DNA from: Methylocapsa acidiphila B2
Lineage (GTDB): Bacteria; Pseudomonadota; Alphaproteobacteria; Rhizobiales; Beijerinckiaceae
NCBI RefSeq assembly: GCF_000427445.1
Contig: NZ_KE386496.1
Span: forward strand, 3,698,004 to 3,762,003
Direction of reading: 5' to 3'
DNA length: 64,000 bases
Below the pieces are notes generated by a model. The model ran no database searches. It was not told the DNA's origin and saw nothing but the letters and a program-made list of their open reading frames with translations. Position numbers and translations under genes: made by a program. Positions 14,645 through 42,786 of the stretch are shown piece by piece. Every line of letters starts with the position of its first letter. Within the stretch, counting starts at the first letter, position 1.

Positions 14645-14806
14645 AGCTGTCGCCTTTCATTCGTGGGCCATTCGTGCGGCGACGGGCAGCCCATGCGGAG
14701 CGCGTCTGCGCCCGGAGGTTGCGGCGCAATTGACCCACCGGTCCAAATAATGCTGTGTACGCACCAGTGACGCCTCAATATCAAACGCGACCGACGATCG
14801 GAAATC

Positions 14807-17476: not shown

Positions 17477-17993
17477 TCTTTTTGCGCGCGCGCGCAAAGG
17501 AGGCCGCCTGGCCGCGCCGTTTCTTGCGCTGGCGCTGGCGGGCTGTTTCCAGCCGCTTTACGGGCCGCTCAGCGCCAGCGGCGACGTCGCCGGCGAGATG
17601 CAGGCGATCGCCATCGATCCCGTGCCCGACAGGCTCGGGCATTATCTCGTCAACGAGCTGATCTTCGCCCTGAATGGGACGGGCTCGCACGTGACGCCCC
17701 GCTACAGATTGATGATTGGCGTGCGGGAAAACGCGCAGACGCCTTTGATCGACACGGTCACCGGCTACCCGAGCGCGGCGACCGTCGTCGTCACGGCCGA
17801 GTATAAGCTCATTCCCGTGCAAGGCGGCGATCCGATCCTGAAAGGAAGCGCGACCACTTTCGCGACCTATGACCGGACCAGCCAGAGATTCGCCAATATT
17901 CGCGCCTCGCGGGACGCGGAGATCCGCGACGCCAAAACGCTCGCCGATCAAATCCGGACCCAGATCGCCGCCGCGCTAGCCGCGCGCGGCTAG
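17463..17993 (+). CDS. lptE: LPS-assembly lipoprotein LptE
   Basis: 176 residues. Signal peptide with lipobox LALAG-C (cysteine near residue 28), then FQPLYGP, the classic LptE start of the mature protein. LptE plugs the LptD barrel that inserts lipopolysaccharide into the outer membrane. It overlaps leuS by 14 bases and is followed after 8 bases by holA, the conserved leuS-lptE-holA operon. Confidence 0.93.
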
Positions 17994-26473: not shown

Positions 26474-26893
26474 TTGATTCGGGGATTGATGTCGGATGAG
26501 GAATGGGCGTGTTTCGAGCCGTTCGTGACGGTTCGCGGCGCGCATAGCGGGCGACGGCCGAAGGACCACCGCCTCGTTCTCGATGGGATTTTCTGGATTG
26601 CCCGCACCGGCGCGCAATGGCGGGACCTGCACGAGCATTTCGGCAAATGGTCGTCGGTCTATCGGCAGTTCCGGCGCTGGACTCTCAGTGGGCTGTGGGA
26701 GCTCCTTCTGGAAGCCCTGAATGAAACCGAGGGCGTTGGCGAGACCGTCCAGATGATCGACTCGACCATCATCCGGGCGCATCACTGCGCCGCCGGCGCT
26801 AAAGGGGGACTCCGCGTCAGGGTCTTGGCCGCTCGAGAGGTGGCTTCACGACAAAGATTCACCTCCGCACGAACGGCGAAGGACTGCCGATAG
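26474..26893 (+). CDS. IS5-family transposase, N-terminal frame (orfA), copy 2
   Basis: 139 residues, identical to the first copy. TTG start at 26474 with the strong Shine-Dalgarno GAAGGAGG 6-7 bases upstream (in-frame ATG at 26489 also possible). Carries the first catalytic aspartate (MIDSTII). At AAAGGGGG (26801-26808) the homologous sequence continues in the -1 frame (TPRQGLGRSRGGFTTKIHL), which implies ribosomal frameshifting to make the complete enzyme. Confidence 0.85.
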   Translation: MIRGLMSDEEWACFEPFVTVRGAHSGRRPKDHRLVLDGIFWIARTGAQWRDLHEHFGKWSSVYRQFRRWTLSGLWELLLEALNETEGVGETVQMIDSTIIRAHHCAAGAKGGLRVRVLAAREVASRQRFTSARTAKDCR

Positions 26894-26943
26894 CCGCAAA
26901 GATCACCGCAGGCGAGGTCTCGGATTATTCGGGCTTCGCCCCC

Positions 26944-27255
26944 TTGATGGAAGCGGAAGGACCTGAGGCCAAAGTCCTGCTCGCCGATCGTGGTTATGAT
27001 TCCGATCATATTCGCGAAACGCTGGAGAAAACAGGCGCTGCGGCCATCATTCCGACGCGCCGAAACCGCAAGATCCAAATCCAGATCGACAGTCACATCT
27101 ATGCCTTGCGCAACCGCGTCGAGCGTTGCTTCAACAAGCTCAAAAACTCTCGGCGCCTCGCAACCCGCTACGACAAAACCGCAGCCAGCTATCTCGGGTT
27201 CGTCCAAATCGCCGCGATCAGGATCTGGATGCGCATATTTGTCAACAGGACCTAG
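26944..27255 (+). CDS. IS5-family transposase, catalytic C-terminal frame (orfB), copy 2
   Basis: Identical protein to the first copy. The frame is open from about 26803, 141 bases before this start, with transposase homology throughout (IHLRTNGEGLPIAAKITAG), so it is expected to be made as an orfA-orfB fusion. DDE residues D (LLADRGYD) and E (RNRVERCF). Confidence 0.8.
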   Translation: MMEAEGPEAKVLLADRGYDSDHIRETLEKTGAAAIIPTRRNRKIQIQIDSHIYALRNRVERCFNKLKNSRRLATRYDKTAASYLGFVQIAAIRIWMRIFVNRT

Positions 27256-27638: not shown

Positions 27639-28523
27639 ATGTCTGGCTTTTCGCCTTTTGTCATCAAGGCTCTCGTTGATGTCATCACCGGCGGGGCGGG
27701 CAACGACTCGACGCCGCCAGTCGGGGTCTATCGTTCAGGCCCGAAGATCGAACAGTTTTTCCTCGACTGTGGTCTCGACATGCGCATCGGCGCGACTTCG
27801 CGCGTACCAGCAACCACAGAATTCCTGCGGCAAGTCGCGCGCGGAGAAAACGGGGATGCAGTCTTGACCCGAGTTTTGCACCGGGTTGCTGATCCTCACG
27901 ATTATTTGGCCGAACCGGAGAAGGCTCACGCCGTCGTCGAACATCTCAATAGGGCTCTTGAGGCGGATGGCTTCGCTCTGACGATTGTAGGAGGCAAGTC
28001 TCAGCTCGTCACGCGGCAAGCGTCAGGAGCCATTGTGGCCGCGATCATTGAAAAGACGACGCTGCTCGATTTCGATACGGTACAGCGCGATATCGCCCGG
28101 GCACAGCAGGGGTTGACCGATGATCCCGAGGACACAGTAACGGCGGCCTGTTCGCTGATCGAGTCCGTCTGCCGTTCGATTTTGATCGAACTGAATCTGC
28201 CCCTACCTCCGAAGAAAGATATTGATGGGCTGATTCGCGCCGTCCAAGAGCCATTGGGCTTGTCGCCCGGCAAAACCGATCTTCCTTCCGACATAGAAGC
28301 GGACGTTCGTCAGGTTCTCAGCGGCCTGACATCTGTCGCCAAGGGTATAGGCGCGCTGCGCACTCATGCCGGTGACGCGCATGGCCGTGAAAAGGGATTT
28401 AGGCGACTTGATGCTCGCATTGCCCGTTTGTCAGTCAACGCCGCTGGTTCCCTCGCATTGTTTCTGATCGAGACTTGGGAGCACCGCCAGAAGCGAGCAT
28501 TGCCTTTGCGCGAGGTTGCATGA
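27639..28523 (+). CDS. Abortive-infection family protein with C-terminal Abi_C domain
   Basis: 294 residues. The C-terminal third follows the Abi_C pattern: AACSLIESVCRSILIELNLPLP (about 168-189), SGLTSVAKGIGALRTHAGDAHGRE (about 230-255) and VNAAGSLALFLIETWEHR near the end. Proteins with this domain are found in phage-resistance (Abi) loci and often carry a variable N-terminus. Residues 1-120 here are not recognised. Its stop overlaps the start region of the recombinase gene (ATGA at 28520-28523). Confidence 0.75.
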   Translation: MSGFSPFVIKALVDVITGGAGNDSTPPVGVYRSGPKIEQFFLDCGLDMRIGATSRVPATTEFLRQVARGENGDAVLTRVLHRVADPHDYLAEPEKAHAVVEHLNRALEADGFALTIVGGKSQLVTRQASGAIVAAIIEKTTLLDFDTVQRDIARAQQGLTDDPEDTVTAACSLIESVCRSILIELNLPLPPKKDIDGLIRAVQEPLGLSPGKTDLPSDIEADVRQVLSGLTSVAKGIGALRTHAGDAHGREKGFRRLDARIARLSVNAAGSLALFLIETWEHRQKRALPLREVA

Positions 28524-29475
28524 ACCAGCTTGCCGCCTTCACCGACCGTGTGTCCCCGTCCTCATCGCCGCCGACGGTGTGCGCGCCTCCTACCGCTTCT
28601 TTGAATTCTTCACCGCCAACATCCGCAACCCGAATACGCGCCGCGCCTATGCGCGCGCGGCGGTCGAATTCCTCGACTGGCTTCAGGCGAAGGGCGTGAC
28701 GCGGCTCGCGGCCATCGAGAGCGCGCATGTCGCCGCCTATGTCGAAGAGCTGCAAAGGGCGCGATCCGCGCCGACCGCGAAATTGCGCCTGGCGGCCTTG
28801 CGTCATTTGTTCGATTGGATGGTGATCGGCCAGATCATGCCGGTCAATCCCGCCGCCGCCGTGCGCGGGCCGCGCCATATCGTGCGGCGCGGCAAGACGT
28901 CGGTGCTCGATCCGGCCGAGGCGTGCCAGCTCATCGACGCGATCGACGCCTCGACCGTCATAGGCCTCCGCGACCGCGCGCTCATCGGGCTCATGGTCTA
29001 TTCCTTCGCTCGCATCGGTGCGGCGATCGGCATGCGCGTCGAAGACGCATACCCGCAGAACCGGCGGCTCTGGGTGCGGCTGCACGAAAAGGGCGGCAAA
29101 GAGCACGCCATGCCGTGCCATCACAATTTAGAGGCCTACCTGCATGAATATCTCGACGGCGCGGGCCTCGCAGCCGATCCGAAGGCGCTCTTGTTCCAGA
29201 GCTACAGCCGGGCGACCGGCCAGCTGACCGGCAATCCCCTGCCCCAAGCGAACGCCTATGCGATGATCCAGAGACGCGCCAAGGCCGCAGGCGTCACGAC
29301 GCGCGTTGGCAATCACACGTTCCGGGCGACGGGCGTCACCGCCTATCTCAAGAACGGCGGCACGCTCGAACGCGCCGCGCAGATGGCGAACCATGCAAGC
29401 ACGCGCACGACGCAGCTCTATGACCGCCGCGCGGAAGAAGTCACGCTCGACGAGGTGGAAAGGATTTTGATTTGA
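28516..29475 (+). CDS. Tyrosine recombinase / site-specific integrase, probable 5' frameshift
   Basis: 319 residues. N-terminal SAM-like core-binding domain (FFTANIRNPNTRRAYARAAVEFLDWL), catalytic domain with the first arginine in FARIGAAIGMRVED, lysine in EKGGKEH, H-x-x-R in HTFRATG, histidine in ANHAST and nucleophile Y in TTQLYDRR: all catalytic residues present. The coordinate start is a TTG (28516) in the frame of the enzyme. A better start, ATG 28520 (MNQLAAFTDR, overlapping the abi stop), lies in the -1/+1 neighbouring frame and fits the usual N-terminus of such proteins; one missing base near 28553 would join them. It may therefore be frameshifted but still translated from the TTG. 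Confidence 0.82.
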   Translation: MHEPACRLHRPCVPVLIAADGVRASYRFFEFFTANIRNPNTRRAYARAAVEFLDWLQAKGVTRLAAIESAHVAAYVEELQRARSAPTAKLRLAALRHLFDWMVIGQIMPVNPAAAVRGPRHIVRRGKTSVLDPAEACQLIDAIDASTVIGLRDRALIGLMVYSFARIGAAIGMRVEDAYPQNRRLWVRLHEKGGKEHAMPCHHNLEAYLHEYLDGAGLAADPKALLFQSYSRATGQLTGNPLPQANAYAMIQRRAKAAGVTTRVGNHTFRATGVTAYLKNGGTLERAAQMANHASTRTTQLYDRRAEEVTLDEVERILI

Positions 29476-30078: not shown

Positions 30079-30870
30079 CTACCGCTCCGGCCCGAGCGCG
30101 CTCTCATGCCAGCGGCCGAGGAGCCAGGCCGACAGCGCCGAAAGCGCCGCGAAAATCGCGATTCCGGCGAGCGAGATCAGGGCGAGCCCCGCGAACATGC
30201 GCGGGATGTTCAGCCGGTAGCCTGCCTCCATGATCCGGAAGGCGAGCCCCGCGCCTTGGCCCGCGGCGCCGGCGGCGAGCTCGGCGACGATCGCGCCGAT
30301 GAGCGCGAGGCCGCCGCCGATCCGCAAGCCCCCGAGGAAATAGGGCAGGGCCGAGGGCAGGCGCAAAAGCAGGAGCGTCCGCCATCGCGAGGCGCGATAA
30401 AGCTCGAACAGATCGACGAGGTTTCGATCGGCCGAGGCGAGTCCGAGCGCCGTGTTCGACAGGATGGGAAAAAAAGCGGCCAGAAAGGCGCAGACGAGCA
30501 CCGCCGTCGCGGGTTCGAGATAGATCAGGAGCAGAGGCGCGATGGCGACAATCGGCGTGACCTGGAGGACGACCGCGACGGGCAGGAAGGACCGCTCGAT
30601 CCATTTCCATTGCGCGAAAAGAAGCGCGAGCCCGACGCCGCCGAGCACGGCGGCGGCGAGCGCGGCGAAGGTGACCTTCAGCGTTTCAAACAGCGCCGGC
30701 AGGAGGATCGCGCGGTCGGCCGCCAGAGTCTCGAGAACGAGAATAGGCGACGGCAGGATATAGGGCGGCACGTCGTCGAGGCGGACGAAGGCTTCCCAGC
30801 CGGCGAGAAGGGCGAGCATGACGAGCGCCGGCGGGCCATAGCGCAGAGCCCATTGTGGCGCGGGCGTCAA
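30079..30870 (-). CDS. ABC transporter permease (SsuC/TauC/ThiX type)
   Basis: 263 residues with about six transmembrane helices and the EAA loop A-x-x-L-G-x-S-x-x-x-x-x-x (NTALGLASADRNLVDLFELYRAS, about 135-157). The start TTG at 30870 overlaps the stop of the ATPase gene (TTGA), so translation is coupled. Partners are the ATPase and the NMT1-like binding protein upstream. Confidence 0.88.
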   Translation of the reverse strand: MTPAPQWALRYGPPALVMLALLAGWEAFVRLDDVPPYILPSPILVLETLAADRAILLPALFETLKVTFAALAAAVLGGVGLALLFAQWKWIERSFLPVAVVLQVTPIVAIAPLLLIYLEPATAVLVCAFLAAFFPILSNTALGLASADRNLVDLFELYRASRWRTLLLLRLPSALPYFLGGLRIGGGLALIGAIVAELAAGAAGQGAGLAFRIMEAGYRLNIPRMFAGLALISLAGIAIFAALSALSAWLLGRWHESALGPER

Positions 30871-31643
30871 AGATCTTCTCCATGAACGGCGTCCCGCAAC
30901 GCCCCGGCGGCGCGCTTGCAGGTTGCGGCATAGGCCGCGCTCACGCGATAGGCCTCGTCGCGCGCGGCCGCGTTGTCGACGCCGATCTCAGCGGTGATCC
31001 GGCCGGGCCGCGCGGCCATCACTACGATGCGGCTGGAAAGATAGGCGCTCTCATAGACCGAATGGGTGACGAAGACGATGGTCGCCCCGAGCTCTTCTTG
31101 CAGCCGCAGCAGATCGTCGTTGAGGCGAAAGCGGGCGATCTCGTCGAGCGCGGCGAAGGGCTCGTCCATCAGCAAGAGCAAGGGGCGCAGCACGAGCGCG
31201 CGCGCGATGGAGACGCGCATGCGCATGCCGCCGGAAAGCTCGCGCGGATAAGCGGCGGCGAAATCGGCGAGCCCGACAAGGCTAAGCGCCTCCTCGACGG
31301 AGGGAGCGGCCGTCCGCCGGCTCTGGCCCTGAAGGCGCAACGGAAGGAAGACATTGTCGAAGGCGCTCGCCCAGGGCATGAGCGTCGGCTCCTGAAATAC
31401 GAAGCCGATCTCCGCGCCGAGATTGTCGAAGGCGCGGGTCAGGACGCCGCCGGATGGCGCGTCGAGGCCGGCGATCAGCCGCAGGATCGTCGATTTGCCG
31501 CAGCCCGAAGGGCCGAGCAGCGTCAGGAATTCGCCGGCGCGAATGTCGAGATCGACGCCTTCGAGCGCGCGCGTTCCATTGGCGTAGGTCTTGCCGATCC
31601 CGCGCAGGGCGACGAGCGTTTGCGGTCTTGTCATCTCCAGCAT
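30867..31643 (-). CDS. ABC transporter ATP-binding protein
   Basis: 258 residues. Walker A LLGPSGCGKSTILR, Q-loop VFQEPTLMPW, signature ELSGGMRMRVSIARAL, Walker B LLLMDEPFAALD and H-loop THSVYESAYLSSRI are all present. Subfamily of SsuB/TauB/ThiZ-like importers. Starts 34 bases after the stop of the binding-protein gene. Confidence 0.93.
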   Translation of the reverse strand: MLEMTRPQTLVALRGIGKTYANGTRALEGVDLDIRAGEFLTLLGPSGCGKSTILRLIAGLDAPSGGVLTRAFDNLGAEIGFVFQEPTLMPWASAFDNVFLPLRLQGQSRRTAAPSVEEALSLVGLADFAAAYPRELSGGMRMRVSIARALVLRPLLLLMDEPFAALDEIARFRLNDDLLRLQEELGATIVFVTHSVYESAYLSSRIVVMAARPGRITAEIGVDNAAARDEAYRVSAAYAATCKRAAGALRDAVHGEDL

Positions 31644-31677
31644 GGCAGGATCGCCTCGCCGGTTGCGAGCGCCAATC

Positions 31678-32676
31678 TCACGGGCGCGGCCGCAGTTCGA
31701 GGCCGACGCCCTTGTTCACGAATTGCAGCGTGTAGGCCCGCTTGTAGTCGAGGTCGGGCTTGAAAAGGCCGGCCGCGGCCATCTTGGCGAAGAAGCTCTG
31801 CATTCGCGCGTCGGCCATGGCGCCGACGCCATGCTCGAGCGAATCGCCCGAGTCGACAATGCCATAGTCTTTCAGCTTGGCGACCGAATAGGCCAGCTGC
31901 CCTTCGGTAATGTCCGGGTTGTCGCGCCGGATGAGCGCATTGGCCTTCGTGTTGTCGCCGTAGATGTAATTATACCAGCCGATGATGGAGGCATCGACGA
32001 AGCGACGCACGAGATCCGGGTTCTTCTCGATCAGGTCGCGCCGCGCCTCGATTGTGGTCGAATAGGAATCATAGCCGTAGTCGGCGAGAAGGAAGACATT
32101 GGGCTTGAACTTGCCCTGACGCTCCACCTCATAGGGCTCGGAGGTGGCGTAGCCCTCCTCGATCGAGCCCTTGTCCGCGATGAAGGGGCCGGAATTGAAA
32201 CTATAGGGCTTGATGTTCTCTTCCTTAAACCCGTAGGCCGTCCTCAGCCATTGATAGACCGAGACGATCGCGTCGCGGCCGACAAAGGCCCTCGCCTTCG
32301 GCAGGTCCTCGAACCGGTCGAGGCCGGCGCCGGGATGGGACATGAAGATGAACGGGTCCTTCTGGAACATGGATGCGACGACGACGATCGGCACATCCCG
32401 CGCTGCGGCGTCAAAAGCCTGGATCATGTTGGCGCCGAGATTGAACTCGATCTTGCCCGCGGCGAGCAGAAGCTTGTTGTTGGTCTGCGGGCCGCCTTGC
32501 AGGATCGTGACGTCGAGCCCGAATTTTTCATAAGTGCCGTCGGCCAGCGCCTGATAAAAGCCGCCATGCTCGGCCTCGGCGAGCCAATTGGTCGCGAAAG
32601 TCACCTTGTCGAGGGCGACGGCAGGCGAGGCGACGATGGCGAGCGCCGCGAAGAAAAGGGCGATGCTGGGTTTCAA
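31678..32676 (-). CDS. ABC transporter substrate-binding protein (NMT1/THI5-like)
   Basis: 332 residues. Signal peptide KPSIALFFAALAIVASPAVA, then the family opening KVTFATNWLAEAEHGGFYQAL, and SGPFIADKGSIEEGYATSEPYE. TTG start at 32676 is supported by GAGGGA 6-7 bases upstream. Such proteins bind pyrimidine precursors of thiamine, riboflavin, sulfonates or similar; the WLAEAEHGGFYQAL clade is often near nitrogenous-base or thiamine salvage genes, but no such neighbour is present, so the ligand stays open. Confidence 0.85.
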   Translation of the reverse strand: MKPSIALFFAALAIVASPAVALDKVTFATNWLAEAEHGGFYQALADGTYEKFGLDVTILQGGPQTNNKLLLAAGKIEFNLGANMIQAFDAAARDVPIVVVASMFQKDPFIFMSHPGAGLDRFEDLPKARAFVGRDAIVSVYQWLRTAYGFKEENIKPYSFNSGPFIADKGSIEEGYATSEPYEVERQGKFKPNVFLLADYGYDSYSTTIEARRDLIEKNPDLVRRFVDASIIGWYNYIYGDNTKANALIRRDNPDITEGQLAYSVAKLKDYGIVDSGDSLEHGVGAMADARMQSFFAKMAAAGLFKPDLDYKRAYTLQFVNKGVGLELRPRP

Positions 32677-32972
32677 CGAAAATCCCTCAACGGGCTGAAT
32701 TTCTTGTGCCTGGGTTGGCTCGAACTATAGCAGGCTTCTCAGAAGAAGGGGGAAGTTTCGGGATGCGTAAAGTGCACTATAGCGGGTTGGGGCAAAGACT
32801 CGGCCATGTCCCTACTTTTTGCCCGTCTCCTTGTGTCCTATCCAGCGGTCTGCGATTCAAGACGCCGGCGTTTAACAAAGAAAAATTTCCAATTGGACGC
32901 GCGCTCCACTCGGTCGATTCTACGGGCCTGTACTTCTTATGAATATTGATCTATTAATCAGAAAGAATTGCA
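32677..32972. other. AT-rich spacer before the ATPase-TOPRIM gene
   Basis: 296 bases without a gene. Composition changes from GC-rich to clearly AT-richer across it, marking the left edge of the acquired segment. Confidence 0.5.
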
Positions 32973-34769
32973 ATGAATACTTTAACAAGCCCTTTTTCAA
33001 TTGAGATATTTCCATCGAATGGGAAGCGCTACAAGTCGATTAGCAACTTGTCGTGGGAGAACATTCCTAGTTTTGCGATCCTAACCGGCAAGAATGGCTC
33101 AGGCAAAACGCAACTGCTTGAGGTGCTCGCCCATCTATTCAGTGGGACCGTTCCGCCCAATCTACCCCATCTGCCGTTAGAGGTGCGCGTCACAGGTGTC
33201 ATCTATAGTCCGGATGAAATCGGATATGTGCCAAGCGCCGGACGTTTTTCTGGAGGCACGCCTACTTCGCTTGCGAACATAGCTTCCTACCGTCAACAGG
33301 CTTTACAGCAGGCGGCTCAAATTTCTAGCTACAGGCATGACATCGCGTCGACGGTTCGCGCGCAAAAGATAAACAAGCTTCTTGCCAGATCCGCCGTCGG
33401 TCCGACAAATGCGAATATGACATCCACTACGAACTCTGACAACTTTGAGTTCGCGATCAGTGATATTGATATCACCACTGGCCTATGCCAGCTATTCGTG
33501 GCTCATCGGATCAAGATTCTCGAGAGTCTGGAGCGTAACGAGCCGGGCATTGGACCTGACGGCAAGCCGCTTGGCCCCCCTCCATGGCAAGTTGTAAATG
33601 AATCGTTGACGGCGGCGGGCTTTCCTTATGAGATGATCTCGCCCGAACGTACGCCACTCCTAAGCAATTACGAACTCCGCCTAAAGGATCGGAAGACTGG
33701 CGATGAAATTGGCGCTATCGATCTTTCATCAGGCGAGAAGGTGTTGCTCCAGCTTGTACTTTGGTTGTTTACTGCTGGAAGAGAAGGGCTTTTTCCTAAA
33801 CTGTTGTTGCTCGATGAACCTGACGCGCATCTGCACCCATCGATGACTACGCAGTTTCTCGATGTGATCTCGGAAGTTCTTGTAAATAAATATGGCGTAC
33901 GAGTGATCATGACCACCCATTCGCCATCGACCGTTGCGCTCGCCCCAGCTGGTTCGGTCTTTCAGCTCGAGCGAGGAGCGACCTCGATCGCCAAGGTCGA
34001 AGTCCGCGCAGACATTGTGTCGGTACTGACTGCTGGTTTGGTCACCGTCTCGCGAGCAACGAAATTCTGTTTTGTCGAGGACGAAGCGGATGTTGAGTTC
34101 TACGAAACAATTCGTGACATTTTGGTTGATTATGGACCCAGTCAAGATCCAATGGCGCTTCAGCCTTCCCCATCGATCGCCTTTATTCCTGTGTCCGTTG
34201 GAGCAGGAACGACGAAGGTGGCAGGTGGATCAACAGTTGTTACAAAGTGGGTTAATAAGTTGGATACTGATCCACTCGACCGGACTTTCTTTGGGATCAT
34301 TGACCGTGATATCTCCAATTTATCCTCCGGGCGTGTCTACGCGATCGGCCGCTACAGCTTTGAAAATTATCTCCTTGATCCGCTCGTGCTCTTTGCGCTT
34401 TTGCTTGAAGAACGCAAGGCACCAACTATACCGGGTGTAACAATTAGTTCGGGAGACGAGCATCTTTTACGTTTACAGAAACAACCGGACTTGCAGGCAA
34501 TCGCGGACAAGATCTGCGATGTGATGGTAGCCAAACAGCCGAGCCTCGCAACGACTGAGACAACAACTGTCACCTACAGTATCGGATTGAGCGTCCAAAT
34601 ACCAAAATGGGTTGTCGATCATCGTGGCCACGACCTATTGCCCATCGCCCAAGACGCCTTCGGCGGACAACGCATCGTCAACCGGCTCAGACTGCAGAAA
34701 GCCATGAGGCGCTGTAGGCTCGTTCCAAAAGAGCTAGCGGGCCTGCTTACTACCATTCAGATGGCGTAG
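32973..34769 (+). CDS. AAA (ABC-type) ATPase fused to a TOPRIM/DUF4435-like domain; putative anti-phage protein
   Basis: 598 residues. N-terminal ATPase: Walker A GKNGSGKT (39-46), a long variable insertion (about 90-225), signature-like IDLSSGEKVLL, Walker B LLLLDEPDAHLHPS (about 277-290) and H-switch TTHSPST. After about residue 355 comes a second domain: FVEDEADVEFYETI (metal-binding glutamate region), PVSVGAGTTKVAGGSTVV, IIDRDISN (DxD) and RYSFENYLLDP. This arrangement is that of OLD-like/DUF4435 TOPRIM nucleases; PARIS defence uses an AAA ATPase (AriA) plus a DUF4435 protein (AriB), sometimes fused. Base composition and codon use are AT-richer than neighbours, so it is probably acquired. 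Alternative: OLD-family nuclease unrelated to PARIS. Single gene, no partner visible. Confidence 0.75.
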   Translation: MNTLTSPFSIEIFPSNGKRYKSISNLSWENIPSFAILTGKNGSGKTQLLEVLAHLFSGTVPPNLPHLPLEVRVTGVIYSPDEIGYVPSAGRFSGGTPTSLANIASYRQQALQQAAQISSYRHDIASTVRAQKINKLLARSAVGPTNANMTSTTNSDNFEFAISDIDITTGLCQLFVAHRIKILESLERNEPGIGPDGKPLGPPPWQVVNESLTAAGFPYEMISPERTPLLSNYELRLKDRKTGDEIGAIDLSSGEKVLLQLVLWLFTAGREGLFPKLLLLDEPDAHLHPSMTTQFLDVISEVLVNKYGVRVIMTTHSPSTVALAPAGSVFQLERGATSIAKVEVRADIVSVLTAGLVTVSRATKFCFVEDEADVEFYETIRDILVDYGPSQDPMALQPSPSIAFIPVSVGAGTTKVAGGSTVVTKWVNKLDTDPLDRTFFGIIDRDISNLSSGRVYAIGRYSFENYLLDPLVLFALLLEERKAPTIPGVTISSGDEHLLRLQKQPDLQAIADKICDVMVAKQPSLATTETTTVTYSIGLSVQIPKWVVDHRGHDLLPIAQDAFGGQRIVNRLRLQKAMRRCRLVPKELAGLLTTIQMA

Positions 34770-34814
34770 ATACAGCTACTTATTTGGCGAGGGCATCGAT
34801 TACACATCTTGACC

Positions 34815-35465
34815 TCATCCCGCCGGCGGCGGCGCGACGAGGCCCTCGCGCAGGCCGAGATAGAGAAGCTCAATGTCGGAGCGCACCCCGAGCTTCTGCT
34901 TGATGAGCGAATGATAGTTCGCCACCGTCTTTGGGCTCAAGTTGAGCGCCGTCGCGATCTCGGCCGGGGGGCTCGCGTCGAGCAGCAGGCGCAAGATCTC
35001 GAATTCGCGGGGCGACAGGGCGTTCAGCGCCGAAGCGTCGCCGTCGAGCCGGCGCAGGGCGAGTTCCTGGCTGACGTCCGGCGAGATCGCCTTGCGTCCG
35101 GCGAAAACATCGCGGATCGCCTCCGCCAGCAACAGCGGATTGCTGCTCTTGGTGATGTAGCCTCTCGCGCCGGCCTGGAAGGCGTGCATCGCGTAGATCG
35201 CGTCGGCATGCATGGTGAAGACGACGATCCGCGCTGAGGCGTCCCAGGCGCGGATCTGCCCGATGAGGTCTATGCCGCCGCGCCCCGGCATGGAGACGTC
35301 GACGACTGCGACGTCCGGCTGAACCTCCTTATAGAGCCGATAGGCGGTTTTGCTGTCGGTTGCCTCCGCCGCGACCTCTATGCCCGCCTGTTTCTCCAGA
35401 AGGCGACGATAGCCTTGCAACACGATGGCGTGATCGTCGACGAGGATGACTTTGATCGGCGCCAT
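34815..35465 (-). CDS. NarL/LuxR-family response regulator
   Basis: 216 residues from ATG 35465. Receiver with D10/D11 (ILVDDHAIVL), phosphoacceptor D56 (VVDVSMPGRGGID), T in VFTMHAD and K in YITKSSNP; C-terminal LuxR helix-turn-helix (LSPREFEILRLLLDASPPAEIATALNLSPKTVANYHS). Its ATG overlaps the kinase stop (ATGA), a firm cognate pair. LuxR-type regulators paired with HisKA_3 kinases control alcohol oxidation in several methylotrophs (for example MoxX/MoxY in Paracoccus); that parallel is an inference. Confidence 0.93.
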   Translation of the reverse strand: MAPIKVILVDDHAIVLQGYRRLLEKQAGIEVAAEATDSKTAYRLYKEVQPDVAVVDVSMPGRGGIDLIGQIRAWDASARIVVFTMHADAIYAMHAFQAGARGYITKSSNPLLLAEAIRDVFAGRKAISPDVSQELALRRLDGDASALNALSPREFEILRLLLDASPPAEIATALNLSPKTVANYHSLIKQKLGVRSDIELLYLGLREGLVAPPPAG

Positions 35466-36865
35466 CACGCGTCTCCTTGCGCGGCGGCGATCGGAAGCGT
35501 TACGGCGAGCCTGGCGCCGCCTGACGCGCCGCCGCAAAACTCCATGCGGCCCTTGAAGATCGCGACCCTTTCGCTGATCCCTGCGAGGCCTGATCCAACC
35601 CCGACTCTATCGTCCGGGGCGAGGCCTCGTCCGTCATCCTCGACGGTCAGCCGAACGGCGCCCTTGGTCGATGGATCTGGCTCGTCCGCAAGCCGCTCGA
35701 GAGTGAGATCGACATTGCGGGCGCTTGCATGCCTCGCGGCGTTGGTCACGCCTTCCTGCGCGATGCGAAAAAGGGTGATGGCCAAGGCGTCGGGCAAATC
35801 ATGTAAATCGCCACGATCCGTAAAGGCGAAGCGGGTCGTCGTCCCCAAGCGGCCGTTCCAGCCGGCGACGAGATCTCTGAGGCTCGCGACGAGGCCGAGT
35901 TCGTCGACAATGGCCGGGCGCAGTCTCGCCATCGTGTTGCGCAGCTCGTTCATCATCTTCATGGCGATCTGCGACAGGCTTGCGGCCTCCGGCATCAGCT
36001 CCGGGCATACGGCTTTAGCGGTCGCCCCGACGGAACCGGCGATCGCGTTGATCGCCGCCAGATTTTGCCCGAATTCATCATGGAGCTCGCGGGCCAAGTG
36101 GCGGCGCTCCTCCTCCTGAGCGACGGCGAGGCGGCGCGCGAGCTCCTCCCGTTCGGCCATGGCCGCTTCGAGGCGCGCGGCCATGCGATTGATCACATCG
36201 CCGATCCGCTGCAACTCTACGAGCGGGACTTGCGGAAGCCTGTAGGACAAGTCGCCGGCGCCGAGCCGATCTATGCCCGCCTGCATGGCCAGGGTCGGCC
36301 GCAAGGCGCGATCGATGGCGAAATAGACGACGACGCTCAGGAGCGCGATCGAGCCGACCGTCACCGACATGATCCGCCGCGTTTCGCTCCAGGCGCGCGT
36401 CTCGCCAAGCATGGGGTCGAGCGAGACTTCCACGGTCGCCGCAACGCCGCCGCGAGGTTCGATTGCTCGCCTCAGTGGGCCTAGGGGTGCGAAAAGCGTG
36501 CGGTAGAGCGTCGAGAACCACCGTGGCGTGGCGGCGTCGGAAGCGCCTACGCCGAGGCAGGTGGCATAGACTTGCTGGCGGTCGGCGTTCTCGAAGCGGA
36601 TGCAAGATCCTTCGTCGATCAGCCTGTCCGCTATGAAGCTCCAATCCGGCAATCTTTCATCGCGATCAAATCCGGTTTGGAAGCTGATCGGCTGCAAACC
36701 GAGCTTGCCGGCGATAAGCTCCATCTTCGTCTCGAGGCCGTGGCTGAGCTCCATCCGCGTCTCCATGATGACGAATGTCGCGGCGGCCACGGCGCAAGCG
36801 AGCGCGCCCAGCGCAACCCTAAGCATGACGAAAACCTTGAGGTTGAGCAGACGGGCGGTCCTCAT
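35465..36865 (-). CDS. Membrane sensor histidine kinase (HisKA_3 type)
   Basis: 466 residues from ATG 36865 (GAGG upstream; an extension to 36958 via TTG has no support). Helix 1 about 9-34, periplasmic sensor about 35-163, helix 2 about 165-186, HAMP-like linker 188-240, coiled coil, dimerisation/phosphorylation box RELHDEFGQNLAA with H262, and HATPase_c with NAARHA and the GxGLAGISERV region. Partner of the LuxR-type regulator. The periplasmic domain is not a recognised fold and holds two cysteines that could form a disulfide. Confidence 0.92.
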   Translation of the reverse strand: MRTARLLNLKVFVMLRVALGALACAVAAATFVIMETRMELSHGLETKMELIAGKLGLQPISFQTGFDRDERLPDWSFIADRLIDEGSCIRFENADRQQVYATCLGVGASDAATPRWFSTLYRTLFAPLGPLRRAIEPRGGVAATVEVSLDPMLGETRAWSETRRIMSVTVGSIALLSVVVYFAIDRALRPTLAMQAGIDRLGAGDLSYRLPQVPLVELQRIGDVINRMAARLEAAMAEREELARRLAVAQEEERRHLARELHDEFGQNLAAINAIAGSVGATAKAVCPELMPEAASLSQIAMKMMNELRNTMARLRPAIVDELGLVASLRDLVAGWNGRLGTTTRFAFTDRGDLHDLPDALAITLFRIAQEGVTNAARHASARNVDLTLERLADEPDPSTKGAVRLTVEDDGRGLAPDDRVGVGSGLAGISERVAIFKGRMEFCGGASGGARLAVTLPIAAAQGDA

Positions 36866-37097
36866 TGCGAGCCTCGAGCGCGGCGATTTTTTTAAAAAGG
36901 AGGAACATCGGCGTCGAGAAAGGTCGCAGCTTCCCGATTGCGGGTAAAGCATGTGCAAGGAGGGTCGGGAAATTTTCCCAAGTCCTGCCGGGACCGCATC
37001 CGATGCAGGCTCGGCGGTCGGCCCCTATTCTTTATCGGATCGAGGCGCCTTCGCTTTGATTTTCGTCGCTCGACCCGGCCACGCATAAGGCGATCCA

Positions 37098-37544
37098 ATG
37101 CGCATGAAGCAACCCATCACGAAGAAGTTGAGCGCGCCCGCAGAGAAAGTTTGGGAGGCGATCAGCCGGATCGGACGGCTGGAGGTGTGGTTTCCTATCA
37201 TCGCGACATGCGCCGTGGAAGGAGACGGCATAGGCGCTCGTCGGAGGATGACGACGCAAGACGGGGGTGAGATAACAGACATTATAGAAGAGATAGATCC
37301 GGCGAAAAGGCGACTCACTTATCTGCGAGCGACATCGCCATTTCCCGTGACATTTTATCGAGGAACGGTTGAAGTCTTCGATTCGTTTGACTTGCAGGCG
37401 GTCGTGGCCTGGACCATCGACTTCGAGTCCGCTCCTCAAGACGCCGCCGCTGTCGCCGAATTGGTGAAGGGAGCGATCGGCTCCGGTCTCGACGGGATGG
37501 AAAGGGACCTGCAGGCGGAGGCGGCCTCCCTAGAAAGGGGCTGA
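37098..37544 (+). CDS. SRPBCC (START-like) family protein, MxaD-like
   Basis: 148 residues: KKLSAPAEKVWEAISRIGRLEVWFPII is the standard polyketide-cyclase/SRPBCC opening, followed by beta-strands forming a hydrophobic ligand pocket and a C-terminal helix (AELVKGAIGSGLDGMERDL). The methanol-oxidation protein MxaD belongs to the same superfamily; here there is no signal peptide, so it is probably cytoplasmic. Starts the plus-strand group that continues with DUF2380 and the creatininase-fold gene. Confidence 0.78.
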   Translation: MRMKQPITKKLSAPAEKVWEAISRIGRLEVWFPIIATCAVEGDGIGARRRMTTQDGGEITDIIEEIDPAKRRLTYLRATSPFPVTFYRGTVEVFDSFDLQAVVAWTIDFESAPQDAAAVAELVKGAIGSGLDGMERDLQAEAASLERG

Positions 37545-37651
37545 GGCGGGAGGCCAAGATTTTCGCGTGCTCACGCTTCGATCGGCGCGCGCGTCGCGCC
37601 ACGCTGTCGACGCCCCTATCCACATATTCTTTGGCGCTTTAGGATCAAATC

Positions 37652-38227
37652 ATGAAAACTCATCCATCGGCGGCGCCTCGTTGGAGTTGGCGGCTCATTG
37701 GAGCGGGCGCGCTCCTTGCCGCGTCGCTTGCGCCTCTCGCGGCGTCGCCCGAGCCGCAGCCGCGAATTAAGCTCGCGGTCTTCGACGTCGAGCTCGATGA
37801 TTTCTCGGCGGGCGGTCCGCTCGCGGGCGAAAGTCCGAAAGAGACCGAGATGCTGCGCCACGCCACTGCGCTCGCGCGCGAGCGGCTTGCGCAATCCGGC
37901 CTTTTCGAGACCGTCGATGGGAGCGCTTCGACCAATGAAATGGTCAAATCGCACTGGCTGCGAAAGTGCAACGCATGCGAGGCGGCGATCGCGCGCGACC
38001 TCGGCGCGGACATGTCGTTCCTCGCCTTTTTTCGCAAGGTGAGCGTGATGGAGCAATATCTGGAATTTCGCATCCGGGACGCACGGACCGGCGAGCTCAT
38101 GAATGTCTCGAAGACGGATCTGCGCGGCGAAACCGAGGAGTCGTGGAGCAGGGCTATGACCTGGCTGATCCGATATCAGTTGGTGGAGCCTGAACTCGCG
38201 CGGCGCAATCGCGAGCCGTCGCGCTGA
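37652..38227 (+). CDS. DUF2380 family exported protein
   Basis: 191 residues with a signal peptide (about 13-33, LIGAGALLAASLAPLAAS). The mature part matches the DUF2380 pattern IKLAVFDVELDDFSAGG, CNACEAAIARDLGADMSFLAFFRKVS and ESWSRAMTWLIRYQL. Proteins of this domain are periplasmic and of unknown role; two cysteines in CNAC could bind metal or form a disulfide. I recall such genes beside quinoprotein/methylotrophy genes but cannot verify it here. Confidence 0.75.
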   Translation: MKTHPSAAPRWSWRLIGAGALLAASLAPLAASPEPQPRIKLAVFDVELDDFSAGGPLAGESPKETEMLRHATALARERLAQSGLFETVDGSASTNEMVKSHWLRKCNACEAAIARDLGADMSFLAFFRKVSVMEQYLEFRIRDARTGELMNVSKTDLRGETEESWSRAMTWLIRYQLVEPELARRNREPSR

Positions 38228-38326
38228 GGGCGAGCCCGAGATGGATATGAACGCCGATGCAATCGGTGTTATAGCGCCGTCGGCGCCAGATAGTGGATCT
38301 TCCACGCTGCCACGAAGGATGACGCC

Positions 38327-39136
38327 ATGCCGCCCACACGATTCTGGGCCGAGATGACCTGGACGGATTTCCAGGATGAGGACATGGCCAATGTCATCGC
38401 CGTCCTGCCCGTCGCCGCGATCGAGCAGCATGGGCCGCATTTGCCGCTCGGCGTCGATACATTCATCATGGAAGGCTATATCGCCAAGGTGATCGAGCGC
38501 CTGCCGGACGATCTGCGGGTCCTGTTCTTGCCCGTCCAGACCTGCGGCTGCTCGATCGAGCATCGGGATTTTCCAGGCGCGCTCAGCCTGTCGGCGAAGA
38601 CGACCCTCCGCGTTTGGACGGAGCTTGGCGAATGCGTCCATCGCGCCGGCTGCCGCAAGCTCGTTTTGCTCAATTCGCATGGCGGCAATAGCGCCATCCT
38701 CAGCATTATCGCGCATGATCTTCGCGCCAGGCTCGGCATGCTCGTCGTGACGGCGTCCTGGAGTCGGTTCGGCGCGCCGGACGGGCTTTTTCCTGCGAAG
38801 GAGCTAACCCATGGCATTCATGCCGGCGACGTAGAGACCTCATTGATGCTCAGCTTCCGGCCCGACTTGGTGCGCCGCGACCGGGCGGAGAGTTTCGCCT
38901 CCGAAAGCCTGGCGATCGAGGGCGAGTTCAACTGGCTTCGCGCCGGCAGGCCGACGGGCTTCGGCTGGATGTCGCAGGATCTGTCGGCCTCGGGCGCCAT
39001 GGGAGACGCCGCTGCGGCCGACGCGGAAAAAGGCGAGGCCTGCGCCGATTATGGCGCGACTGCTTTCGTCGAGCTGCTTCAGGATATTGACGGATTCGAC
39101 CTCACAAGGCTCAAGGACGGGCCGCTTCGAGAGTAA
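38327..39136 (+). CDS. Creatininase-fold metallohydrolase
   Basis: 269 residues. Metal-ligand motifs of the creatininase family: EQHGPHLPLGVDTF (E, H, D), NSHGGNSA and HAGDVETS. Members include creatinine amidohydrolase, the riboflavin-pathway enzyme ArfB and mycofactocin MftE, a peptidase; the substrate is not determinable. Gap of 99 bases after DUF2380. Confidence 0.88.
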   Translation: MPPTRFWAEMTWTDFQDEDMANVIAVLPVAAIEQHGPHLPLGVDTFIMEGYIAKVIERLPDDLRVLFLPVQTCGCSIEHRDFPGALSLSAKTTLRVWTELGECVHRAGCRKLVLLNSHGGNSAILSIIAHDLRARLGMLVVTASWSRFGAPDGLFPAKELTHGIHAGDVETSLMLSFRPDLVRRDRAESFASESLAIEGEFNWLRAGRPTGFGWMSQDLSASGAMGDAAAADAEKGEACADYGATAFVELLQDIDGFDLTRLKDGPLRE

Positions 39137-39318
39137 GGCTCGCCGGAGTCCTTCGGATATTCGATCCCGTAGTCTGATGGCGCATTCTTATCCCGAGAAA
39201 GGAAGGATGCGTTCTGGGCAGGCGCGCTGCTTTGGAAGCGGCGCCGAGAACTGCAATGGCGCAACTGAAGTTTTCTTGAGCAATATCGCCGCTTCCTTGG
39301 CCTCGCGACAATCTTTTG

Positions 39319-40443
39319 CTACAGCCGCCCCTCACTCGAGGCACGCTTATTCAGACGTCGATAGAGCGTGCTGCGGTGGACTCCAAGCCGACGCGCGGCC
39401 TCGCTAAAATTGCCTTCGCACGTATCTACCGTGGCCCTCATGGCGGCATGCGCGGCGTCCCGCAATTTATGCTCGGCGAGATGCGCCGAAGGTCCATGAC
39501 AGCGATCCTGCCAATCCCAAGGACAATCGGTCGGTCGGGCGTGACAATCCAACGGCAGATTCATGATCCCGTAGTAGCTGCCGCCGTCGACGCCGATAAG
39601 TTTGGTCGGCTGAGACATGTTGTTTGGAGCGGTTTCGAACAATTCCTCGAATGTCGTCGCGTCCAGGGCGCTCCAATCTCGTTGCACGAACGACAAGCCG
39701 CGACGGTTGGCCGCGATGAGGCGTTGGCGGTCGTCAAAGACCAGCAGGCCTTCTCGGGTTGCGCCGATCACAGCGGGATCGGTATGGAAACGCAGGACCG
39801 TGTAATTGTGAAAAGCGCCGCCGTTGAAAAAACGGTGCTCGATCTGCTCTACGGAGAGACGGATGAGGCCAAGCGCGTGGAGATGCGTCATGCTCGAGTG
39901 CGCCGACAAGTCGAGCGCGCCGATGACGACGCCGCGCGGATCGACGATGGGCATAGCGGCGCATGTGAGAACTTGGTGGCTCTCGAAGAAATGCTCTTTG
40001 CCGTGTAAGGTGACCGGTCGGCGTTCCGCCAGCGCTGTTCCGATCGCGTTTGTGCCGGCGGAGGTTTCGCTCCAAAGGGCGCCTGGCCGCAATGCGACCT
40101 CCGCCGCCTGTCCTGCGAAGGAAACGTCGCCAATCGTGTCGAGAACTATGCCTTGCGCATTGGTGAGAATCACAATGGCGCTTGTATCCCGCGCCTCGCC
40201 GTTTAGCGCGTCAAGCTCCGGTCGACAAAGGCGCCTGAGCTGACTGTAGCGTTCCAGCAACGCGTTTAGCTCTTGCTTGTTCGGCAGCTCGATGCCGGGC
40301 AGCCGACTTTGATCGAGCCCGAATTCGACACATCGCAGCCAGGATCTTAAGATAAGCTGGTTAACCTCATCGACAGGCAATTCGCCGCGTTCAAAGAATT
40401 TGGCGCGGGTCTCTTGCGTAATTGAAGCAGCAACCTCGTGCAT
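39319..40443 (-). CDS. GAF-domain regulator with C-terminal Fis-type helix-turn-helix (AcoR-like, no AAA domain)
   Basis: 374 residues. GAF domain about 88-235 (TDAQGIVLDTIGD-like; SETSAGTNAIGTALAERRPVTLHGKEHFFE is the AcoR-type signature), a second PAS-like part (EGLLVFDDRQRLIAANRRG, about 240-262), and HTH_8 near the end (GNFSEAARRLGVHRSTLYRRLNK). The sigma54-activating AAA+ domain that usually separates these modules is missing, so it may regulate without sigma54. The porin gene lies directly upstream on the same strand, separated by 208 bases. Confidence 0.88.
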   Translation of the reverse strand: MHEVAASITQETRAKFFERGELPVDEVNQLILRSWLRCVEFGLDQSRLPGIELPNKQELNALLERYSQLRRLCRPELDALNGEARDTSAIVILTNAQGIVLDTIGDVSFAGQAAEVALRPGALWSETSAGTNAIGTALAERRPVTLHGKEHFFESHQVLTCAAMPIVDPRGVVIGALDLSAHSSMTHLHALGLIRLSVEQIEHRFFNGGAFHNYTVLRFHTDPAVIGATREGLLVFDDRQRLIAANRRGLSFVQRDWSALDATTFEELFETAPNNMSQPTKLIGVDGGSYYGIMNLPLDCHARPTDCPWDWQDRCHGPSAHLAEHKLRDAAHAAMRATVDTCEGNFSEAARRLGVHRSTLYRRLNKRASSEGRL

Positions 40444-40651
40444 TTCGCGCCATCATTTTTGCATGTTCACAAGAATTTTTGGCGCCGAGGGTCGTCGCCT
40501 AAAACTATTATCAAGAATTCGACGGACGCCAACTTTCAACTACGCTAATTGTCGCAGGGTCATAGCTCGCCAATTGACGCATTATTCGCGGCGTTTGTCG
40601 GTTCATTCAACGTAAGGCAAGTTTTATGCCTTCCGCTTACTGTCCCGGGCG

Positions 40652-42238
40652 TCAGAAGGTGAAAGTCGTTCCTAGGACCAGAGCATCCGAGCTTATGCCT
40701 TCCCCGATCAAATTGTGCGAAACTGAGTGGATATATTCGCTCTGCAGCGTGACCCAATCGCTGAACTGGTATCGGACAAAGCCAATCGCGGAGGCGTTCG
40801 ATGCGACAAGCGTTCCGTCGCCGTGATAGCGCGGGTAATCGATGGCGTTCGCGTGAAGATAGCTGACGCCGTAACTGCCGCCGATGGTCAGACGTTCGAA
40901 CAGCGTGTAAGCGGCTTCGGCATAGAAGCCGGACGATGCGCGTCGCTCGCCATCGATGCTGACGCCGTCGAAATAGAGGGCCGTCGTGCCGAGGCCGACG
41001 CCATAATATCCATAGGCGACGAATGTTGCTGGCCCGAAGTCCAACCTTGCGCCGCCGTCGACTGCCCAAGCGCGCACGGCCGCGCCTCTCGGCAACAGCA
41101 CAGCGTCGTCAGCCTCGACGCGATGTTGCTGCGTGAGCCCATCGGTCCAGGCCGTCAGCTTCACATCCGGCGCGAGCCGGCCGACATATTTCACGCGCGC
41201 CTGAAATCCCGGCTGATCATGCCCGGTCAATGTGCCGGAATAGGGCGCGGCGCCCCATGGCGACTCAAACGAGCCGGCGTTGTTGAACTCCTGGTAAGGC
41301 GAGAAGGCGCCGACCGAGAATGTGACACCGTAGAAGTTCGGCGAGGTGTAGGAGACCTGCGGAATCCAGTCGGCATAGACATATCCGAAGCCGATCCGGC
41401 CTAGGCTGGTGTTGGCGGGGCTCGCGTTTCCTGCGATAGTGCCGGTCCCGAAGAGCGTGAAGTCGTTGAGAATTGCGTCGGAACCGAACAGCCCGATGTC
41501 GCGGCCGATCTTGACCGTTCCGATATCTGGCGTTCCGATCGTTCCGAAGACTTGGCGCACGTCTGCGCCCGGCGTGCCCATCGCGACCGAGGTCCCCGAG
41601 CTGTTGCCGTTGAGAAGGCCGACGTTAACGTTGTTGCCGCCGGTGTAGAGGCCTAGAGTGAAGCCAATGTTATATCCAGACTGAACGGTGGCGATGTTCA
41701 GCACCAATGAGCTCGGGAGCAGGCCGGAGCGAATTGAAGCTGAGTTGTTTATGGTGCTTCCGCCGGAGAGCCCGCCGCCCACCGCGACATTCCCGCCTCT
41801 CTGCTTGAATTGTTCCGCGCCGAAAAAGACGAGCTGACCCTGAAGCCCAACGTCGACGTCTCCGATACGGACGCCGATCCCTTTGTCTGCGCGTGTGACG
41901 AAGCGGTCGTATGGCGCGGCGCTAGGCTTGTCGCCCTTCGACGCGGGGCCGTCGGACTTGGCGACGGCTTGCTGGACGGCGTGCTGGGCAAGTTCGGCGG
42001 CATGACGCCGCTTCAGCTCTTGATACTCGCTCTTCGTCAGAATTCCCTTCGTCCGAAGCTGGTCAAGCAGCCGCTCGGTCGTATCGCCGCGCGCCGGCGC
42101 GGGGTAGAAAAAGGCGATGGCGATGGCCGTTGCCGGGATCAAGCCAACCGTCTTCCGACGAGCGCGGCGGTCAATGAAGTCGCTCGACGGCTTTCTTGTG
42201 ACGTCCGACCTTGCCGCGTCGCCACTTTGCATTGGCAT
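40652..42238 (-). CDS. Outer-membrane porin
   Basis: 528 residues from ATG 42238, selected by AAGGAG seven bases upstream. An unusually long basic leader (about 30 residues) precedes the hydrophobic signal (VGLIPATAIAIAFFYPAPARG). Then a short coiled coil (LLDQLRTKGILTKSEYQELKRRH) and a 16-strand-like barrel rich in aromatic/glycine alternation, ending VLGTTFTF with the terminal phenylalanine needed by BAM. Resembles DcaP/Porin_4-type proteins with an N-terminal periplasmic coiled coil. A tandem operator-like region lies 406-595 bases upstream. Confidence 0.88.
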   Translation of the reverse strand: MPMQSGDAARSDVTRKPSSDFIDRRARRKTVGLIPATAIAIAFFYPAPARGDTTERLLDQLRTKGILTKSEYQELKRRHAAELAQHAVQQAVAKSDGPASKGDKPSAAPYDRFVTRADKGIGVRIGDVDVGLQGQLVFFGAEQFKQRGGNVAVGGGLSGGSTINNSASIRSGLLPSSLVLNIATVQSGYNIGFTLGLYTGGNNVNVGLLNGNSSGTSVAMGTPGADVRQVFGTIGTPDIGTVKIGRDIGLFGSDAILNDFTLFGTGTIAGNASPANTSLGRIGFGYVYADWIPQVSYTSPNFYGVTFSVGAFSPYQEFNNAGSFESPWGAAPYSGTLTGHDQPGFQARVKYVGRLAPDVKLTAWTDGLTQQHRVEADDAVLLPRGAAVRAWAVDGGARLDFGPATFVAYGYYGVGLGTTALYFDGVSIDGERRASSGFYAEAAYTLFERLTIGGSYGVSYLHANAIDYPRYHGDGTLVASNASAIGFVRYQFSDWVTLQSEYIHSVSHNLIGEGISSDALVLGTTFTF

Positions 42239-42786
42239 GAGAGGGCTCCTTGGGAAAGCCCCGGCCGCGTGCAGAGCCCATGGCCGGGGAAGTGACAAGT
42301 GAGATGAAGTCCGCTCACCAACGACCCAGCGGCACGGGTCATCCCGGAAGGGGATGCAGCGGGCGGCCGCGCGACGCCTGTTTAGGCGGGCGTTGGTCGC
42401 ATCGTTTCGGCGGAAAAGGCGGCTCGGAATGAGCGCCGTCGGGCGTGGGATCTGAACGATCGTCAGCCGGTGAGATAAATCCGCGACATCAACTGGTGCT
42501 CCCTGGGCTGCAAGCGTGAGCTCCGCCTTCCGCAATTGGAAGCATTAGCCGTGGTTGGATGTCCGGCATCAATTGGAAACGACAGGAAATATCTATCTAA
42601 TGGGGAGTATCTGTAAAATAAGACATCAAACGTTTGAGTGTCTTGTGGCAGAGTGCGACATCTAGTTTTGGGTTGTCGCAAATTACAACAGCGCGGCAAT
42701 ATGTCTCATACTAAATAATGCTATATAGTGTCGCGGTTCTATTACTCAGAGTGGAATGAAGACGCAATACCGCTTTGCGCTTTGGC
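42239..42786. other. 548-base upstream region of the porin gene
   Basis: No gene recognised; a 79-codon minus frame (42463-42699) has no family character. The distal AT-rich part contains the paired operator-like sites described separately. Confidence 0.5.
42644..42690 (-). promoter_or_regulatory. Two 17-bp operator-like palindromes, 30 bp apart
   Basis: Site 1 (42644-42660) reads TGTGGCA-GAG-TGCGACA; site 2 (42674-42690) reads TGTCGCA-AAT-TACAACA. Both have 7-3-7 architecture around TGTsGCA and centres exactly 30 bp apart, about three helical turns. Half-sites TGTCTCA (42702) and TGTCGCG (42729) follow. They lie upstream of the porin; the nearby GAF-Fis regulator is an obvious candidate to bind them, which is an inference. 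Confidence 0.5.

Follow-up and report, generated by a model that had tools for sequence, protein, structure and literature searches.

A gene of Methylocapsa acidiphila B2 encodes, in a single chain, an ABC-type ATPase followed by an AriB-like TOPRIM domain, and probably constitutes a self-contained anti-phage abortive-infection system in which the ATPase would gate a TOPRIM nuclease, a reading that draws on sequence, structural models and analogy. The protein is a distinct AriB-type variant of the known single-chain ATPase-TOPRIM defence proteins. Behind this assignment stand the domain architecture, the fold match of the C-terminus, the identical catalytic residues, the AT-rich insert that carries the gene and the defence or phage context of some relatives. 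All positions refer to the window, the whole stretch of 64,000 nucleotides that was analysed (Table 1).

Table 1. Positions of the ATPase-TOPRIM gene, its motifs and its surroundings in the window; fractions are rows of the family alignment.
Feature	Positions	Strand	Remarks
ATPase-TOPRIM gene, 598 aa, single chain	32973–34769	+	Intact ORF, ATG to stop
Walker A, TGKNGSGKT, residues 38–46	33084–33110	+	K45 identical in 34/34
ABC signature, LSSGE, residues 251–255	33723–33737	+	G254 identical in 34/34
Walker B, LLLLDEPD, residues 277–284	33801–33824	+	D281 and E282 identical in 34/34
H-loop, residues 315–319	33915–33929	+	H316 identical in 34/34
TOPRIM core, about residues 363–468	34059–34376	+	E369 at 34077–34079, D444 at 34302–34304, D446 at 34308–34310, then SFENYLL (462–468)
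C-terminal helical subdomain and beta hairpin, residues 469–598, GHDLL motif	34377–34766	+	Confidently modelled; the AriB match stops at the TOPRIM core
AT-rich insert	32690–34823		Same-genus DNA homology stops at about 32690 and restarts at 34824 (one congener)
Core ABC transporter operon: permease, ATPase, NMT1/THI5-like binding protein	30079–32676	-	Left flank, outside the system
LuxR-type response regulator and histidine kinase	34815–36958	-	Right flank, outside the system; one congener has it colinear in a different setting

The initial annotation described one chain with complete ABC-type ATPase motifs, and this was borne out by the intact ORF, by the conservation of the motif residues and by Pfam, in which residues 1–345 match AAA_21 (E 8.8e-22, 79 bits, cut-off 27) and AAA_15 (E 7.8e-15, 55.8 bits, cut-off 32.1). 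The three motifs that it listed for the C-terminal half, FVEDEADVEFY, IIDRD and SFENYLL, could all be located. Eight residues (K45, G254, D281, E282, H316, E369, D444 and D446) are invariant in the 34 rows of the family alignment (A2), D373 is kept in 33, N465 in 32, and E464 and H553 in 30 each; E369 with D373 and D444-x-D446 are taken here to fit the motifs of the TOPRIM family. This alignment omits six of 35 relatives from viral contigs, five of which run off a contig end (L021, L026, L027, L028 and L046) and one of which was left out for no good reason (L041). Given orthologues at 56–61% identity, the 35 viral-contig relatives and the eight invariant residues, the ORF and its domains are not a product of chance. 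The protein has a single match in its own genome. For DUF4435, the model proposed earlier for the C-terminus together with a conserved E/DxD, the outcome is divided: the acidic residues hold throughout the alignment, whereas the model itself is borderline, scoring 24.4 bits at residues 365–482 of the whole protein (E 2.9e-5) and 27 bits on the C-terminus alone against a Pfam cut-off of 27. It finds 13 of the 34 family C-termini and misses 21 even at the lax threshold of E <= 0.1.

Among the PADLOC defence profiles, AriAB is the top match of the whole protein (E 9.2e-27, 92 bits, best stretch 241–380), followed by AriA and the retron ATPase-Toprim I-B; ABC-type ATPases cross-match broadly, and 151 PADLOC families match the whole protein at E <= 1. 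With the C-terminus alone, AriAB (6.6e-9) and AriB (1.9e-7) are the sole families listed at E <= 10.

The C-terminus was modelled over residues 358–598 (pLDDT 93.5, pTM 0.90), and the best Foldseek matches of this model are all TOPRIM nucleases: AriB (8ux9_A, E 2.9e-3, probability 0.98), AriB again (8v46_D, 0.75) and an OLD TOPRIM (6nk8_B, 0.69), while the remaining 47 of the 50 listed matches, at a probability of 0.16 or below, are noise. Since the E-values are modest (none <= 0.001; TM-score 0.42 at best), the fold argument leans more on how specific the top three matches are than on their significance. A profile-profile comparison of the family C-terminus with six AriAB/AriB-type sequences gave 97.3% probability over 91 aligned columns, confined to the TOPRIM core, and a smaller family alignment gave 95.9% over 59 columns; the reference set consisted of four AriAB-type chains and two DUF4435/AriB-like proteins gathered by the DUF4435 and AriAB models. 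A search of PDB sequences with the C-terminal profile returned no TOPRIM protein and nothing relevant. Model and sequence agree that the C-terminus is an AriB-like TOPRIM with a predicted acidic metal site, and the fusion of a TOPRIM/DUF4435-like domain to the ATPase, as initially annotated, is confirmed in this form, with no preference for a non-TOPRIM fold. In the Foldseek ranking of the full-length model (pLDDT 87.0, pTM 0.66), retron PtuA complex chains lead; the matches below them include Rad50/SMC types, with GajA 22nd and AriA 38th, and the global superposition is poor.

The gene is AT-richer than its flanks, as noted at the outset, with a GC of 0.513 and a GC3 of 0.539 against 0.58–0.69 and 0.66–0.85 in nine other genes of the window (integrase, transporter operon, regulators and others); the Abi_C gene of the window has 0.579 and 0.61. 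A DNA search for the gene in 39 further related genomes, including 14 congeners, gave no match. On the left, homology with congeners ends at about 32690 (the one reaching furthest stops at query position 2612), and the three-gene transporter operon has strong matches in 13 of the 14 congeners. On the right, homology begins at 34824 in one congener (G401), which has the 3' flank alone and carries the regulator block colinearly, on a different contig from its transporter operon. Within 10 kb of the NMT1-like gene, six of seven congeners have a creatininase-like ORF on the insert side, whose start resembles window position 38327 by eye; in G410 the ORF caller gave no such ORF near the NMT1-like gene. 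The two lie about 0.1 kb apart in G399, G404 and G406, about 1.6 kb in G407 and G397 and about 2.9 kb in G409, against 5.65 kb in the window, where the ATPase-TOPRIM gene and the regulator block stand between them. This spacing indicates that the site has taken up DNA, and the gene was probably acquired horizontally. The ends of the insert have no flanking repeats of 14 bases or more, and a scan for promoters and terminators found 2 against 1.6 expected and 2 against 2.5 expected. The region 32677–42786 is variable as a whole: several congeners keep the NMT1-like gene, the creatininase-like ORF, an acetyltransferase and an MdoG-like gene close together, and in the window several blocks, including the ATPase-TOPRIM gene, separate them.

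A defence island in the window, proposed from the proximity of an Abi_C gene and an integrase, is doubtful. The stated distance was right, as the Abi_C gene ends at 28523, 4.45 kb from the ATPase-TOPRIM gene; nevertheless, the conserved transporter operon stands between the two units, and the direct neighbours of the gene are a transporter component and a regulator. The Abi_C gene (1.1e-20; AbiJ profile 3e-18) overlaps a tyrosine recombinase gene by 8 bases (27639–29475), and this pair may be a second small mobile unit. Abi_C is present in two of 15 genomes of the genus, own genome included, and next to the pair lies an IS4/5-type transposase made up of two ORFs, with a DUF4096 and a DDE domain (26474–27255).

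Full-length orthologues occur in Rhizobium anhuiense (L001, 58% identity), an Acetobacteraceae MAG (L002, 61%), Sphingomonas sp. Leaf242 (L003, 56%) and Mesorhizobium comanense (L004, 61%), and plasmid relatives at 26–30% identity in Caballeronia, Planktothrix, Croceicoccus and Rhizobium leguminosarum. At E <= 1e-20 the gene is found in three of 397 genomes of the order and three of 385 of the class, own genome included. Viral contigs gave no match when searched with the window protein as a single sequence (P0001) and at least 53 loci when searched with a ten-sequence alignment; among the matches listed, 35 are relatives with a phmmer E below 1e-10, and L015–L017 share 43–49% identity. In 50,697 deposited phage records P0001 gives one partial ATPase match and no full-length relative, and the viral-contig relatives L015 and L022 find no relative. 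The phage evidence comes from the viral contigs.

The Rhizobium anhuiense orthologue lies 1.8 kb downstream of CBASS genes (cyclase 5.1e-141, E1-E2 1.1e-208, JAB 1.9e-64, SAVED-HNH effector 2.8e-160), presumably of type II, with at least one unassigned ORF in between, and is followed within 5 kb by two ORFs without a PADLOC match and then an OLD/AriA-like ATPase and a TmtA-like protein. The CBASS genes, the orthologue, the OLD/AriA-like ATPase and the TmtA-like gene form a defence cluster at 1505–17800 of that locus. Two distant plasmid relatives also have defence neighbours: L011 is flanked by two TIR-domain genes, with an integrase 6.6 kb off, and L013 directly follows type I restriction genes. 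Among the four close orthologues, three of which were looked at, defence neighbours were seen in Rhizobium anhuiense only; the one neighbour scanned in Leaf242 had no PADLOC match, and the surroundings in M. comanense were judged metabolic by eye. Of the distant relatives, L014 lies among genes that are mostly metabolic and L012 among genes for plasmid functions. The neighbourhoods, which the initial annotation had named as a check, include CBASS, TIR, type I restriction and phage genes as well as the metabolic or plasmid genes of L004, L014 and L012, and are not uniformly of a housekeeping kind. Orthologues without defence neighbours leave the odds for defence unchanged, since these are carried by the fold, the conservation and the other contexts.

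A phage hallmark was found within 5 kb at 10 of the 15 viral loci with neighbours checked singly, namely a virion protein and an endolysin (L015), an integrase (L018), a terminase (L019), tail proteins (L020, L022, L024, L029 and L032) and tape measure proteins (L031 and L043); in the one protein tested per locus, none was found at L023 and L033–L036. Such hallmarks are partly expected, because the contigs were drawn from a viral collection. A wider scan covered 106 of 174 neighbour ORFs at 20 of the 35 viral loci, with crude longest-ORF calling and the best 25 of 237 families. Integrase genes make up four of the 106 ORFs among the matches listed, which suggests that the phages carrying the family are temperate.

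An SRAP-like (YedK/HMCES-like) gene within 0.9 kb of a family member was found at six of 43 loci (L015, L018, L022, L024, L036 and L040); the profile took its seed sequences from four of these loci, and the match at L036 is weak. In a PDB check of three of these genes, those of L022 and L040 match YedK, and that of L015 matches two hypothetical proteins, one of which is also matched by L022 and L040. In the deposited phage set, 49 of the 50,697 records match the SRAP query. Conversely, among 160 viral-contig neighbourhoods centred on SRAP genes, taken with 4 kb on either side and often truncated where the contig ends, a strong family member (E below 1e-100) appears in three, on the contigs of L018, L022 and L040, and four more match the family profile weakly. 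This converse count weighs against the SRAP gene as a partner, and the co-occurrence is read as a shared cargo hotspot.

It is likely that the protein acts in defence through an ATPase-controlled TOPRIM nuclease. The ABC-type ATPase (residues 1 to about 345) would assemble as a sensor oligomer that keeps the AriB-like TOPRIM nuclease (358–598) inactive until a phage-made signal flips the state of the ATPase; the TOPRIM domains would then pair, and two-metal catalysis by E369, D444 and D446 would cut nucleic acid, halting the infected cell before the phage matures. With the sensor and the nuclease joined in a single chain, the latter could not be released like AriB of two-gene PARIS, and activation would have to occur in place, as expected for OLD, GajA and the retron ATPase-TOPRIM proteins. 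In two-gene PARIS, as one study describes it, AriB is bound by a hexamer of AriA until a trigger brings about its release, after which it dimerizes and cleaves tRNA; that study also states that the authors' earlier data favour activation of AriB by AriA over simple release (PMC12409363). Killing of recBC cells by P2 Old needs the Walker A lysine and the TOPRIM acidic residues, according to a review of OLD proteins (PMC10568477). In light of this PARIS and P2 Old literature an ATPase-gated TOPRIM nuclease acting in place appears the most likely mechanism, of which we infer the nuclease activity, the oligomer, the gating in place and the abortive infection. By analogy, a tRNA substrate is slightly favoured over DNA, given the AriB match and the reported cutting of a tRNA by Septu (PMC13096335), the system whose PtuA scores highest among solved ATPases with the family profile.

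The descent of the ATPase was examined in a tree of 52 rows, in which the 38 family rows form one clade (support 98/96) apart from the AriA/AriAB, OLD/GajA, HEC-04 and PtuA references, although this is partly a sampling result, as all family rows were gathered by similarity to P0001 or its alignment. The tree kept 52 of 53 rows (L043 was lost) and omitted the OLD-like ATPase of L001 as well as loci L103, L108 and L109 from the reference searches; its references are few and on long branches (five AriA/AriAB, one genomic PtuA), and group names were taken from the profile that found each. The phylogenetic link to AriA, named as a check in the initial annotation, is tolerated by the data (p-AU 0.157 for grouping with AriA/AriAB, 0.466 with three short AriAB alone), yet the data give it no precedence over a link to PtuA or OLD.

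The protein could be an ordinary fused PARIS (AriAB), sensing Ocr-type anti-restriction proteins and cleaving specific host tRNAs, but this is doubtful. AriAB is indeed the top PADLOC match, the C-terminal fold is nearest to AriB, and SFENYLL has a counterpart, RYCFENYLL, in a strong AriAB member (L096); in addition, Rousset et al. (2022) already describe ATPase-DUF4435 fusions along with PARIS (PMC9122126). Nevertheless, the AriAB profile is covered in part (92 bits against 364 for L096), the own genome misses the E 1e-20 threshold in the AriAB genome search, DUF4435 does not rise above its cut-off, and the well-supported ATPase clade excludes the five AriA/AriAB references, even if their grouping is tolerated. 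Of the early inference of a fused PARIS-like or OLD-type defence, the ATPase and the AriB-like TOPRIM stand; the PARIS membership is unproven, given the DUF4435 score, the partial profile and the ATPase descent. A two-gene PARIS-like arrangement was seen at L097 (1345–3387, minus strand), where adjacent ATPase and DUF4435-like ORFs give one AriAB match with an internal stop.

Equally doubtful is a class 1 OLD-like enzyme, that is, an ATPase-TOPRIM protein acting on DNA as a phage-encoded exclusion gene like P2 Old. It would agree with the single gene, for which no partner common to the relatives was seen, with relatives positioned on phage contigs and with the OLD TOPRIM as third fold match. 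However, AriB outranks OLD in the fold search, and the Walker B region reads DEPDAHLH against EEPEAHLH in the five OLD/GajA references, which form their own clade (96/93), though their grouping with the family is tolerated (p-AU 0.434). One of the four close orthologues, that of Rhizobium anhuiense, lies near defence genes, whereas class 1 OLD genes are described in the OLD review as not near other defence genes (PMC10568477); the window gene itself adjoins a transporter component and a regulator.

A Septu/retron-type origin, in which a PtuA-like ATPase would carry a TOPRIM in cis replacing the PtuB HNH nuclease, is unlikely. In PDB searches the family profile scores retron/Septu PtuA chains at 75.7 bits against 46.3 for AriA and 35.9 for OLD, retron PtuA leads the full-length comparison, and the tree puts PtuA closest to the family, though with poor support (61/84). 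On the other hand, the single sequence puts AriA first (E 5.8e-4; retron Ec83 next, 7.8e-4), one genomic PtuA reference represents the group in the tree, and the broad cross-matching of ABC-type ATPases applies here as well. A housekeeping or DNA-repair ATPase-nuclease is very improbable: archaeal OLD-family relatives with a cell-cycle role exist, as PMC12796447 reports, and some relatives have metabolic or plasmid neighbours, but the gene is sparse in its order and class and is found in an AT-rich insert and in phage and defence contexts.

No description of this ATPase-TOPRIM clade was found among the open-licence PMC papers listed, five of which mention DUF4435. Tentatively, the family may be a separate class of single-chain defence enzymes, largely phage cargo, in which an ATPase derived from neither AriA nor OLD would gate an AriB-type TOPRIM in place, without effector release. 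If so, it bears on a question raised in the OLD review, which calls it unclear whether fused AriAB form a separate OLD class (PMC10568477), and the release step of PARIS would be dispensable. In this clade the sensor and an AriB-type nuclease occur naturally in a single chain, so that release and in-place activation become directly testable alternatives, and the clade links phage-contig copies to a copy near CBASS.

Among known systems, PtuA of Septu and retrons scores best of the solved ATPases with both the family profile and the full-length model, yet its nuclease partner is an HNH protein encoded apart, PtuB, whereas the family has its TOPRIM in the same chain. The retron type I-B ATPase-TOPRIM proteins (class 3 OLD) resemble the family in that the ATPase-Toprim_I-B profile, like AriAB and several PtuA profiles, matches all 34 relatives; no reverse transcriptase was seen annotated around the four plasmid relatives. 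HEC-04 and IbfA, single proteins with reported anti-phage activity (PMC12111858), have the same ABC ATPase and TOPRIM architecture; however, the three HEC-04-type references cluster separately (98/99), and the HEC-04 profile gave no match to the C-terminus at E <= 10, 0.025 for L012 and none in the own genome at E <= 1e-30. Class 1 OLD proteins (P2 Old and Thermus scotoductus OLD) likewise combine ATPase and TOPRIM in a single gene, and family relatives occur on phage contigs, but the family differs in a TOPRIM nearer to AriB, in DEPD instead of EEPE at Walker B and in a separate ATPase clade. Fused PARIS differs in the separate clade of its five references, in the partial profile, in DUF4435 at or below the cut-off and in an AriB match that stops at the TOPRIM core; what the two have in common is a single chain with an ABC-type ATPase, then an AriB-like TOPRIM, and within it the E...DxD and EN motifs.
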